From Candidatus Gracilibacteria bacterium S5_H10 (GTDB lineage Bacteria > Patescibacteriota > Gracilibacteria > Absconditabacterales > Absconditicoccaceae), in the NCBI GenBank assembly GCA_019248075.1, contig JAEHHG010000004.1, forward strand, positions 1,505-39,192: 37,688 nt of DNA, written 5' to 3'. Below are positions 2,844 through 37,387 of this stretch, piece by piece (within the stretch, counting starts at the first letter, position 1; every line of letters begins with the position of its first letter). The translations under genes were made by a program, and so were the position numbers. The notes under the pieces were generated by a model that made no database searches, was not told where the DNA came from, and saw only the letters and a list, made by a program, of their open reading frames with translations.

Positions 2844-4166
2844 TTATAATCAAATCTCTTTTTCTTCGCCAGTTTTCATAGTTTTTATTTTATATTTTTT
2901 CAAAGCTTTTTCTTCTTCACCCAAAATAATAACATTTGGAATTCATTTTTTATCTGCATAAGCAAATTGTTTTCCTAATTTGTCAGCGGTCGGATAGATT
3001 TCTATATTTTTCCCTTCATTGATAAAGACTCATGCTAACATCAAAACATCTTGTATCGTCTCTGAAAAATGCACAAAAAGATACTCAGTGATAGTTTTTT
3101 GATGATCTTCATGATCTTTATTTTCAAATAGTTTACCTAAGATTCTTGATATTCATATACTTCCTCCGACTCCACAATACCCTTGTTTTTTTGGATCAAT
3201 ATATCCTGCAAGATTATCATATCTTCATCATCAACAAATCGATCAGAGTCACTTATCATTTTTCAAATAGCATTCAAATACAGTTCACGTATAATAATCC
3301 AATCCCCTGACAATTTTAAAATCAACCTTGTAGGTAACTCATCACATCATTTCATTGAACATATCCAAATATTTCATAACAGTAATCAATTCATCAATTC
3401 CAAGAGAAAATTCTTCATGATCGACAAATCATTTGAGAGCAAGCAAATCATTTTCATGCTTGATATCAAATTTCAAAAATTGTAATAACTTATCAATATG
3501 TTTTTTTTCAATAGACAAATCTTTCAAAGAAAGAACAAACTTATCTTCTCCTATTTTATTGTATTTATCGATCAAAGTAGATACATATTTTGCTGTCTCA
3601 GGCGTAAACAATGACAAAAGGAAGCCATTGATAATTTTTTTGTTGTTAATATGAAAAATAGGCTCATCATCAAACTTTCCGTATGCCACGATTTCACGAA
3701 TAGCTTTGTATAAGTCTAGGATAACTTCAGCATCATAATATACATAATCAGATTTTTTATCGTCTTTCCAAATAGCATCAACATCACACTGCCAAAATTC
3801 TCTATATCTTCATTTTTGAGCTCTTTCTCATCTTCGAACGGGTTGGATTTGATAACGTTTAAAGGGAAATGTTAATTCATTTTCTCGATCCAAGACATAT
3901 CTAGCAAAAGGAACAGTCAGATCAAAATGTAATGCATATTCCTTTACATCTTCAACTCATTGTGCCAAACCGTACAATCAAAAAATTTGCTTACCTGTTT
4001 CTTCACCATTTTTGGAAAGTAAGACAGTATTAGCTTCAACAGCAGGCGTATGAATATGTGTATATCAAAATTGTTGATAATGCTTTTCTATGATTTTTAC
4101 AATATCATCAAAAACAATCTGTTGCGCTGGACTATATTCGGGGAATCATCCTGGACGTAATGCCAT
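2844..4166 (-). CDS. hisS: Histidyl-tRNA synthetase
   Basis: Charges tRNA-His. 440 residues, in the normal range. The N-terminus [16 protein letters not shown] holds the usual PxGF-P start. Motif 2 reads PV-(CGA)-RGERAQKGRYREFWQ at residues about 109-126, and the DAEVI segment follows. The CGA at 3834-3836 is the residue that is Trp in the PVWR(A/G)E(R/D) form of the family, one of the clearest signs that CGA is not Arg here. Glycines of RGER and QKGR are written TGA. The C-terminal anticodon-binding domain runs from about residue 340 to the stop. The start is chosen at the ATG giving the conserved N-terminus. Confidence 0.96.
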
Positions 4167-5761: not shown

Positions 5762-6988
5762 TTATACAGTTTTTATATGTACTCATATATTTTGTAATTT
5801 TTGGACAATATTATCATATCATCTCGCAATAATATCTTCGTTCATAATGTTCGTTGTTCATCTTGCCATAATACCAGCAAGGACCATAGCTCATCCACAT
5901 CTCAAATCAGTAGTAGAGACATATTCTCATCTCAATTGACTTGGTCAAATAACAATAGCTTCATGAGGATTAAGGATTTCTATTTTTGCTCATAAATTTT
6001 CCAATTCAGTCAGATAATTAAATCTTCCTTCATATAATGTTTCAAATATTTTTGAAATTCATGTCGCTTGGGTCAATAAGGTTCAAAAAATAGATTGCAA
6101 ATCAGTAGGAAATCATGGGTAAATTCTCGTTTCAAATTTCACTGCCTGATAATTTTTTTTATTTTTAGAACTCACTCGGATAGTCTCTTTATCAATTATT
6201 TTAAAATCAATTCCTATTTTACTTGCTACACTATAAATCGCAGAAAGATCATCTACATCGCATCATTTGATCATCAATTCAGAATTGTCAGCACCAGCAC
6301 CAATCGCAAAATACGTTCCCGCCTCGATATAATCAGAAATAATTTTAAATTCTTTTATCTGAATATTGATATTGGAGGGTTTGACAACGATGCTATGATC
6401 GACATTCAAATGGATATTTGCTCCGACACTATTCAAAAAATCTATTAAATTTCTTACATGCGGTTCGATAGCAACCTGATAGATATTGATCTCATAATCA
6501 AAATTTTTGGAAAATGCAAGATACGTCAATAAAGCTTCTATAGCAGTTACAGAAAATCCAAGCAGCATAATATTTTTTTTGGGTTTCCCTGTTACTTCAA
6601 ATTCTTTGTATTCTCATTCTTTGATAGTGATTCATGCTTTAACCAATGCATCATCGAACATATCCAAAGGTCTCTTTCCAATATTACAACCACCACTTCC
6701 GACAAATTTTACTTTTCCATACTTGATAAGCCCAAATGGGATAAGCAGAATTGATGCTCTAAATTTTTTTGCTAAATCATCCGTAAGATCAAAAAAAATT
6801 TTGGATTTCTTAATAGCTTCTGCAGCTAGCATTTCCATAGAAGCGACATCTTTAATATTAGGTTTATTGAGTAATTGTATTTGATTATCTATACACAAAT
6901 TAGCTGCAACAATAGGCAAAGCTGCATTTTTGCTTCCAGAAACGACAACTTCTCATGTTAGATTAGCTGAATAGTCAATTTGGAACAT
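5762..6988 (-). CDS. murA: UDP-N-acetylglucosamine 1-carboxyvinyltransferase
   Basis: First committed step of peptidoglycan synthesis: transfers enolpyruvate from PEP to UDP-GlcNAc in the cytoplasm. 408 residues, normal for the family. The N-terminus has SGSKNAALPI, the substrate-binding Lys-Asn pair. The catalytic Cys loop is GSGGCNIGKRPLDMF (Cys at about residue 100, the fosfomycin target). Further on are FETRIYPGFPTDLQ and the C-terminal STTDLRCGGAMVLAG. The ending MNEDIIARGYDNIVQKLQN replaces the usual IxRGYE...KL segment. Many glycines are TGA. It shows that the cell makes at least the first peptidoglycan precursor. Confidence 0.96.
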
Positions 6989-35150: not shown

Positions 35151-35525
35151 GGGGATGCTTCTGGATTTGATAGGAGGATTCCATATGTATTGGCCGCCAC
35201 CATTCGACGAACGTACCGAGATTAAATAATCGTTCACTCAAAAAATGCTAAAACATTAAACAGAGCTTTTGCTCTCGTACCTAGCTATTCATTAGCCTAG
35301 TGACGTACCAACCCATTGTCCGACTCCTACTACGCTTTGGGTGACTAAGTAGGTAACCCGTTCACTTCGGTGGACACAGTTGTTATGGTAAAAACCTATG
35401 CCTGTTTACTGGCTAACGTATCCTGACATAATAACTCAAAAAAATTGGATAGTTAATAGACTATTGTGGTAGAAATCAGTATATATGCCTTTTAGACATG
35501 GGTTCAATTCCCATCATCTCCACCA
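35151..35525 (+). ncRNA. ssrA: Transfer-messenger RNA (tmRNA)
   Basis: Rescues stalled ribosomes and tags the unfinished protein. The 375-nt RNA starts GGGGATGCTTCTGGATTTGAT; the 5' acceptor GGGGATG pairs with CATCTCC before A-CCA (encoded CCA at 35523-35525). The T-arm is ATGGG-TTCAATT-CCCAT. The mRNA-like part has an open frame ending at TAG 35298-35300: from GCT at 35247 it would read AKTLNRAFALVPSYSLA; the exact resume codon is uncertain, and a GCT at 35265 is another candidate. The stop is TAG and not TGA, as needed if TGA is Gly. The 3' end is the boundary of an integrated element. Confidence 0.93.
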
Positions 35526-37123
35526 AACAGTAATTTACATCAAGAAACTTGGTGATTCAATAGGAACAAAGCGGAAATCGGTAGGGTTCAGAAACTCTCC
35601 GATTTTTTGTTTACCTGTAAATTATTTCTGAACACTAATTGATAGAACATTCTCTTTTCATCAACATTACCGTTAGCCCACACATAGTATGGATCCTGTA
35701 ATATTTCAAAAGCAACATCCATAACTTTCTCTATATTTATTTGTTTATCAAAATTTAACTGCCTTTGTAGAGTTTGTTTTTTAAGTTCCAACTCTTCTAT
35801 CTTCCCTTCAAGTTTTCTCCTTGTAATCTCACTAGAAGTAGTAGTTATAAAGTCCAAAGCATTGTCCATATTCACATCTATATCTTTAATCTCTTTTTCT
35901 ATATTTCTAGTAATCAAACCTTTATCTTTTTGCCTATTATTATATTCTCCCATCAATAATTCCTTAAGAAACACAACTGTTTTAGCTTCCATTTTTAGTC
36001 CCTTTACTATATCATCAAAATTATTGTGTATTTTCTCTGCATTAACAGATTTTCAAGCATAGACACACTTTTTATTGAAAGAATAATAAGGGATTGATTT
36101 TCGTTCTTTCCTCTTTTTTCTAGTAATTCAAGAGCTTAAAGGTTTATTACAACAATCACAGTAAAGAAATCATCTTAATGGAAATTCTTCATGAACCTTT
36201 CTGTGAGGAGCTTTATGGAATCTCTTTTTACCCATTCTTTCTTGAATTTTATCGTATATATCAATTGTTATAATCCCTTCATGTTTAGCTTTTCTTAAAG
36301 GGATATCCCAACTATGTTTAATTAGTCATTTCTGAGGTCATTTTCTGTATCTAGTTACTTTCTGATATTCGATATATCATGCATACAATATATTATTCAA
36401 TATCCTAGCAGTAGTAGATCAATGGATAATATTCATATCTTTATTTTTTCTATTATTCTGGGTTCTGGTGAATTTCAATCATTTCCTTTCAAAAAAATTA
36501 ACAACTTCCTCCTGAGAATTCAAAATTCAATATGCATATGATTCTAACCCCTCCTTAATTATACTAGCATTAGGCTCATCTTTAATTAGTAATCTTCATC
36601 AATCAATTGCTTTGGTTGTAGTATATCATATAGGATAATTAAATGGCCAGTATCAATCCAAAAGTCTTGCCTGTTGTCTTGTAATTACTCTATGTTTATT
36701 TTCTTCTCTAAATAATTGAGCATTAGCCGCCATCATTGTTTCAATGAAATGTCATTGAGGAGTATCTTCAAATTTTTGATTAACAGTAATCAACTCTAAT
36801 CCCCTTTTATGCATTTCTAATTTTAATGCTCGATGGACATTAACATCTCTAGCTATTCTGTCAGCATTATCAGCAATAATAAAAGTAATTTTATCTATAT
36901 TAGATTTATTATACTTATCAACAAAATCAAACATTTTTTTAATCCCTGATCTTTCTAAATCTCATCAAGACACTCATCAATCTTCGAAAGATTGTATTAT
37001 TTTTCCTCAAATAATAGGACAATGTCTTTCACAATTAGTTAATTGAGAGTTAAGTCATCAACCATCCAATTGAGAACCAGAAGATACTCTAGTATATGCA
37101 ACACCAAGTTTAAGTTTGATCAT
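35492..37123 (-). CDS. Large serine recombinase (integrase) of an ssrA-inserted element
   Basis: 543 residues to the first TAA/TAG. The catalytic domain starts MIKLKLGVAYTRVSSGSQLD (catalytic Ser in RVSS), with DGGVSGGDLERSG and ADNADRIARDV. The recombinase domain follows (GYWPFNYPIGYTT-like), then a zinc ribbon YCDCC...KKCVYAG and a coiled-coil C-terminus. The sequence up to NKKSESF ends at TGA 35588-35590. If that TGA is Gly, as elsewhere in this gene, the frame runs on 32 codons into the 3' end of ssrA on the opposite strand, ending at TAA 35492-35494. If TGA were a stop the CDS would be 35588-37123. Start 37123 is chosen (GGA seven bases upstream); 37132 is the alternative. Confidence 0.9.
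35576..35608 (+). terminator. Possible terminator downstream of ssrA
   Basis: AATCGG (35576-35581) pairs with CCGATT (35599-35604) around a 17-nt loop and runs into T's to 35608. The long loop makes it weaker. Confidence 0.4.
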
Positions 37124-37137
37124 TCATTCCATAATAG

Positions 37138-37320
37138 TTATTTAGTAGGGGTAAATTTTGATTTTTCCATAAATTCTTCCAAATCATTTTGGCTTATTCT
37201 AAATTCTTTTCAAATTTTATACGCTTTAAGTTTTCAATTTTTGATATATCTATAAACAGTTAGCTTGGCTACCTGTAATAGTAACATCACTTCATTGATA
37301 GTATAGAATTTTTCCTGCAT
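37138..37320 (-). CDS. Excisionase-like helix-turn-helix protein
   Basis: 60 residues. MQEKFYTINEVMLLLQVAKL then TVYRYIKNGKLKAYKIGKEF and RISQNDLEEFME: the winged MerR/excisionase HTH pattern ('yt..Ea...l.vs..Tv.r.i..GklkA.kig...Ri...dl..fl'). Two glycines, in KNGK and IGKE, are TGA codons. It lies 15 bases upstream of the recombinase and on the same strand, so it likely acts as its directionality factor, bending DNA at the att site, or as its regulator. Confidence 0.85.
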
Positions 37321-37387
37321 ATTTAACATTTATATGATAGTAAACGATATAAAAAGTATACAAAAGATATATAAAATCAAGATTAAG

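Follow-up and report, generated by a model that had tools for sequence, protein, structure and literature searches.

The recombinase gene and its ssrA target

The window analysed here is a stretch of 37,688 nt from one contig of Candidatus Gracilibacteria bacterium S5_H10. It carries ssrA (tmRNA), the integration target, on the + strand at 35151-35525 (ARAGORN; Rfam RF00023, 71.8 bits). On the - strand, at 35492-37132, lies the gene for a large serine recombinase of 546 aa, in its integrated (attL) form and with 25 TGA codons read as Gly (table 25 translation; Pfam). Just upstream of the recombinase gene, at 37138-37329 on the - strand, is the gene for a 63-aa HTH_17 protein (PF12728, 5.5e-16), a candidate excision or direction factor. 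Pfam places a Resolvase domain (PF00239, 4.9e-19) at residues 11-156 of the recombinase and finds the Recombinase domain (PF07508, 4.3e-6) above cutoff; the YxRVS motif of the catalytic domain is present, with Y13, R15, V16 and S17 invariant. The zinc beta ribbon (PF13408) scores 20.5 bits in the window protein, the cutoff being 25.3, and 37.4 bits, above cutoff, in the relative L196. The best NCBIfam match is CcrB (NF047343), at 99.2 bits versus a cutoff of 900. By sequence, then, the window gene and its relatives are large serine recombinases, with recombination activity predicted. The gene has TGA where homologues have glycine, which marks it as a code 25 (SR1/Gracilibacteria) gene.

Contig C22 of G007, a genome of the same genus, and the window have the host genes up to ssrA in common, including dnaG and its neighbours. 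The sequence 3' of ssrA in the window is different from that at the ssrA locus of G004, likely an empty site, and the element therefore starts at the ssrA 3' end. The window's contig stops ~550 bp beyond the start of the recombinase gene, with the far element end outside the assembly and the attL half alone visible. When the window's own genome was searched for attR, the pattern ATCTCCACCA occurred at six places, ssrA itself among them. The sole tempting candidate, C35:17174, was rejected: it directly precedes a cold-shock gene, whose Shine-Dalgarno it appears to be. Two contigs binned with the window's genome, L044 (G000:C214) and L032 (G000:C42), look richer in G+C, and the recombinase stretch of G000:C214 has no in-frame TGA; assembly contamination is possible for these contigs.

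A scan of genome contigs with the window protein gave no match; the same type of scan with an alignment as query recovered standard-code relatives. The family is found in Patescibacteria of either code and in Alphaproteobacteria, and phage, plasmid and viral collections held no close relative of it. A tRNA or tmRNA gene lies no more than 500 nt from the end of the ORF at 65 related loci, and at all 65 the recombinase is read on into the antisense of this gene, which is more than chance. The targets are tmRNA and the tRNAs for Leu, Gly, His, Lys, Arg, Ser, Thr, Ala, Val, Tyr and Glu.

Gly515 and the end of the integrated gene

The TGA at 35588-35590 (- strand) encodes Gly515 in an FxT motif of the protein's tail, the F being at 35591-35593 and the T at 35585-35587; the context is SF-G-TLPISALF, and homologues have GGA, CGA, CAA or TGA at this codon. 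Past the TGA, table 25 translation gives 31 further residues and then TAA at 35492-35494, inside ssrA. The first part of this extension (TLPISALFLLNHQVSGCKLLF, 35526-35587, - strand) is element-encoded and unlike the G004 ssrA 3' flank. The rest, GGDDGNGTHV and the TAA stop (35492-35525, - strand), is host att DNA, the ~10 residues being the antisense of the ssrA 3' end at 35495-35525. A preliminary description of the locus had claimed that the frame continues for 32 codons, i.e., the 31 residues and the stop codon, that it crosses the element/ssrA junction, and that it ends at a TAA within ssrA, all of which the translation confirms. The description also had the last 12 or so residues coming from host att DNA; the origin is right, but the count is slightly lower, at ~10.

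Among relatives the tail motif takes the form G-[FY]-x-T-[PLA]-x-x-S-x-[LP]-[FY], where x is mostly Gly, Arg or Gln. Of the 41 standard-code loci, 19 have GGA in place of the TGA, 8 have CGA and 7 have CAA, Gly being the most frequent residue; code-25 genomes have CAA, CGA or TGA at x. Other sites in the window's genus keep TGA or have CGA, with the frame staying open, and TGA is kept in the ssrA-associated tails of L004, L008 and G007 C22. The codon is a sense codon in every locus tabulated. Homologues ending at this position with TAA or TAG, named at the outset as evidence that would count against read-through, were looked for and none was found. TGA 35588-35590 is a sense codon, not a stop, because the conserved FxT motif has GGA, CGA or CAA there in relatives and because 65/65 related loci run on into tRNA or tmRNA antisense. 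That UGA is Gly at 35588, as originally proposed, is thus borne out by the 25 in-frame TGA codons and by the sense codons in homologues. That the TGA instead stops the recombinase, with the DNA beyond being only att and terminator, is extremely improbable: it is true that the TGA coincides with a terminator-like hairpin and with an inverted repeat, and that the motif shows DNA-level constraint, but the same gene has 24 other TGA codons, homologues of both codes follow their sense codon with the conserved T-[PLA]-x-x-S-x-[LP]-F, and standard-code relatives most commonly have Gly there.

The DNA of this segment carries signals of its own. The FxT codons double as a DNA motif, TTT-NRA-ACC, whose other strand, GGTTY, is like a tRNA T-loop. 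In the window this att-like, T-loop-like motif is TTCTGAACC (GGTTCAGAA on the + strand) at 35585-35593, as judged by codon constraint and spacing; its distance to the codon at the ssrA 3' end is 61 nt, compared with 60 nt in relatives. Gly in FxT is GGA in 19/19 standard-code cases, versus GGA at 28% of glycine codons in gene bodies. The putative recombination core, ATCTCCACCA, is placed at the ssrA 3' end (35516-35525, + strand) by its position and by the same core in relatives, and it is also found at the element ends of G007, G008, G451 and G210. The hairpin, AAATCGG...CCGATTT followed by a T run (35575-35605, + strand), has the TGA codon in its loop. The TGA lies within both the att-like motif and the terminator-like hairpin, so at least two constraints act here. 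An inverted repeat, GTTCAGAAA/TTTCTGAAC, flanks the hairpin at 35586-35594 and 35625-35633. In two tRNA-Leu relatives, L005 and L006, both arms have changed together (GTTCGGT/ACCGAAC), a covariation that suggests a conserved structure at the 3' end of the recombinase gene.

Displaced gene ends in relatives

For ~40 insertions, the element-side DNA was searched for a directly repeated copy of the 3' end of the RNA gene. When the recombinase frame was joined across the repeat, as it would be in attP, it stayed open, and the resulting peptides aligned with one another; examples are MVDKVYQSWNQILETVLRWGEWL in G338, (M/L)VEIIEKSFNTIQDYFMRWYPHL in G451 and VVDRNPESWNSFFDVILDWAPKL in G387. In 13 Patescibacteria genomes, a conserved peptide of ~30 aa, [MLV]V[DE]....SWNQL......W...L, lies beside tRNA 3'-end sequence at the far element end and continues the recombinase frame. 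Two apparent far-end repeats were set aside: the core copies of G024 belong to a 99-bp tandem array, and the 11-bp repeat of G034 is too weak to trust. The G024 array (L102, G024:C11, 5425-5798) is a perfect repeat of 3.8 copies around a tRNA-Gly 3' end; it sits at the end of its contig, in the vicinity of an element.

A leave-one-out profile built from five tails was used to scan the code-11 regions at every antisense reading position. Fifteen matches (13 genomes, z 6-9) scored at least 25; the one in G539 begins at a close variant of the CCACCA-type core and the rest at such a core itself. The next matches score ~21 or below, and several of these are also at cores. With the core residues left unscored, there were 22 matches of at least 16 in 606 kb, 16 of them exactly at TGGTGRA and three at near variants; on the opposite strand this core-free profile gave zero matches of at least 16. 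Alphaproteobacterial elements gave weaker profile matches at their own tRNA cores. In code 11 the phase across the core is conserved in 31/34, which is weaker evidence than it seems because the DNA spacing is near-constant at 60 nt.

When the joined profile was run against 381 genomes of the phylum, natural copies of the whole gene without interruption turned up. On contig C26 of G697 (L270; 4,669 bp), which has no tRNA gene, the recombinase leaves one end and resumes in frame at the other; closing the contig gives a complete recombinase of 542 aa ending ...FGFQTAQLPLILELSQQKNISKTHLVDTLRNSLNQLFDYTWRWLPWVMALENDNV. This contig is best read as a free circle of the element, the closure being judged from frame continuity with zero overlap. 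Besides the recombinase, L270 (1-4669) carries a pair of ORFs for lipoprotein-like products and one ORF of 171 aa. A second contig considered as a circle, C45 of G005, was rejected; it has no terminal overlap. Contiguous tails without a tRNA nearby occur on G451 C47 and G597 C1, as expected for insertion of one element beside another; the G451 tail located at a core is the same tandem junction as that of C47. The naturally contiguous G451 protein was modelled with AlphaFold2 from a shallow alignment, with a mean pLDDT of 88. Its tail, residues 337-373, is helical in the model (pLDDT ~85), and a comparison with the PDB gave serine integrases (LI, Bxb1 and phiC31 complexes) as top matches. The conserved tail is thus predicted to be helical in standard-code relatives. 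In G479 C2 (L271), a standard-code locus, three tail copies with the W motif, at 1719-1808, 3110-3211 and 5927-5998, sit between convergent cargo genes (AAA ATPase and Fic-type ORFs), in integron-like arrays with a serine-recombinase att motif.

Turning to the window's own clade, element regions of code-25 genomes were searched for the W motif, and none was found. G007 and G008, of the same genus and with ssrA as target, have a different far-end peptide, [F]NLLHPLEQEL..KQF.IA.LYESL, which is in frame with adjoining recombinase-tail remnants at several junctions. Two G007 copies of it differ at codon position 3 in 15/20 differences (P=1.7e-4), and 161/343 differences are at position 3 when summed over pairs that are non-independent. 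From this third-position bias we conclude that the G007/G008 far-end peptide is coding. In G006 (tRNA-Leu) a 12-bp core is followed by an open continuation of 47 aa, while the other two frames stop immediately. Code-25 relatives cross the core in mixed phases and their tails are less uniform; the window's phase across the core is one base off that of G007 and G008. Tandem cassettes lacking a recombinase gene lie behind ssrA in L043 (G008:C27, 382-3494) and L038 (G007:C36, 1-3327), each unit having the far-end peptide and the core TCTCCA at its end. Their cargo includes a CPBP protease, an LD-carboxypeptidase, and Fic-like and transglutaminase-like proteins, and the units resemble non-autonomous cassettes that are mobilized in trans.

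One might suppose that the far-end peptide is not the recombinase's end but a separate small protein, such as a direction factor, that starts at the NTG of the core, given that the motif's first codon is always NTG (ATG, TTG or GTG) and hence a possible start codon. We think this improbable. An NTG codon is also imposed by the CCA with which the RNA gene ends; G451, G597 and the G697 circle have the peptide in one uninterrupted frame with the recombinase; and upstream of the motif integrated elements have unrelated host flank, leaving no common ribosome-binding site to serve it. The preliminary description had proposed an integration-dependent C-terminus and had suggested looking for attL/attR pairs and the circular junction. 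In relatives such pairs are seen, the gene is joined on the contig that closes into a circle, and the displaced gene end is found at far element ends, in frame and conserved. The integration-dependent C-terminus is thus supported by sequence for the family.

A model for the split gene and its relation to known integrases

Taken whole, the observations are very probably best explained by an attachment site within the recombinase gene, towards its 3' end, such that integration exchanges the conserved C-terminus for residues from RNA-gene antisense. On this view, the window's large serine recombinase belongs to an integrative element that has inserted at the 3' end of ssrA. In the free circles of the family, the recombinase gene would be uninterrupted and would end in a conserved C-terminal segment, which in standard-code relatives is the W-motif peptide. 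Recombination with a tRNA or tmRNA 3' end would cut it around the NTG-GTG-GA codons, with strand exchange presumably at or beside the CCACCA core. The body of the gene, at attL, would gain a new end from RNA-gene antisense, and the true end would go to attR. For the window, the product after integration would be ...SFGTLPISALFLLNHQVSGCKLLF-GGDDGNGTHV; in the free circle the recombinase frame would run past GGTGGAGAT into element DNA. The tail may be needed for the activity of the free form, for synapsis or direction, and the integrated form may no longer integrate efficiently. Excision might then proceed via the HTH_17 protein or the intact recombinase of another element, and insertion beside another element might restore the tail.

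A stronger version of the model is a built-in direction switch, in which an integration-competent form is made from the free circle only, integration rewrites the enzyme, via host tRNA or tmRNA antisense codons, to an integration-deficient or excision type, and non-autonomous tandem cassettes bear this tail, which serves them as attachment half-site for mobilization in trans. This we put forward tentatively, as rather unlikely. There is a little less than an even chance that the overlap is passive, i.e., a compact att/int module in which integration alters the protein without effect on activity or direction. The strong DNA-level constraint on the tail codons (Gly always GGA, TTT for Phe) is what such an overlap predicts, as is the near-constant spacing to the core of 60-61 nt, which a binding site would have, and the catalytic and DNA-binding parts are intact at attL. 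However, the displaced peptide is conserved at the protein level in 13 genomes and at many targets, and it has third-position bias, which together argue that it is selected as part of the protein.

In some bacterial phages the attP of a tyrosine integrase overlaps the int 3' end. Classical serine integrases have att outside the coding region. The Listeria LI integrase, Bxb1 and phiC31 have the Resolvase and Recombinase domains in common with the present family, and the zinc ribbon in common with the relative L196, but the present family differs in having the core inside the gene and tRNA/tmRNA 3' ends as targets. The SCC recombinase CcrB, whose target is rlmH, is alike in having tandem cassettes that follow a single host gene at its 3' end; the present family differs from it in targeting tRNA/tmRNA and in the overlap of the recombinase gene with the att core. 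A closer likeness is to the archaeal 'suicidal' tyrosine integrases (SSV, pTN3 and pT26-2 types), whose gene is split by integration and which have been described as exclusively archaeal (PMC8371274). There too att lies inside the integrase gene, and integration at a tRNA splits this gene, which is intact only while the circle is free or after restoration by another element. Gene splitting by integration is seen in relatives of the window recombinase, with the far-end motif at the core and the whole gene on an apparent circle. But the archaeal enzymes are tyrosine integrases and have their catalytic part severed, whereas the present family is serine-type and bacterial, with the catalytic part complete and a tail of ~30-60 residues exchanged. 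By these sequence comparisons the family resembles the suicidal integrases but is not a member of them. A literature search that covered few subscription papers returned no bacterial or serine-type gene-splitting integrase.

In sum, this widespread family appears to be a bacterial, serine-type variant of the self-disrupting integrase, milder in that the catalytic body is kept and the tail alone is swapped. Database entries of these recombinases would have host tRNA/tmRNA residues as C-termini, with the true ends missing. The displaced tail offers a simple marker of far element ends and cassette arrays in Patescibacteria, and two natural forms of one protein would open serine integrase directionality to test.
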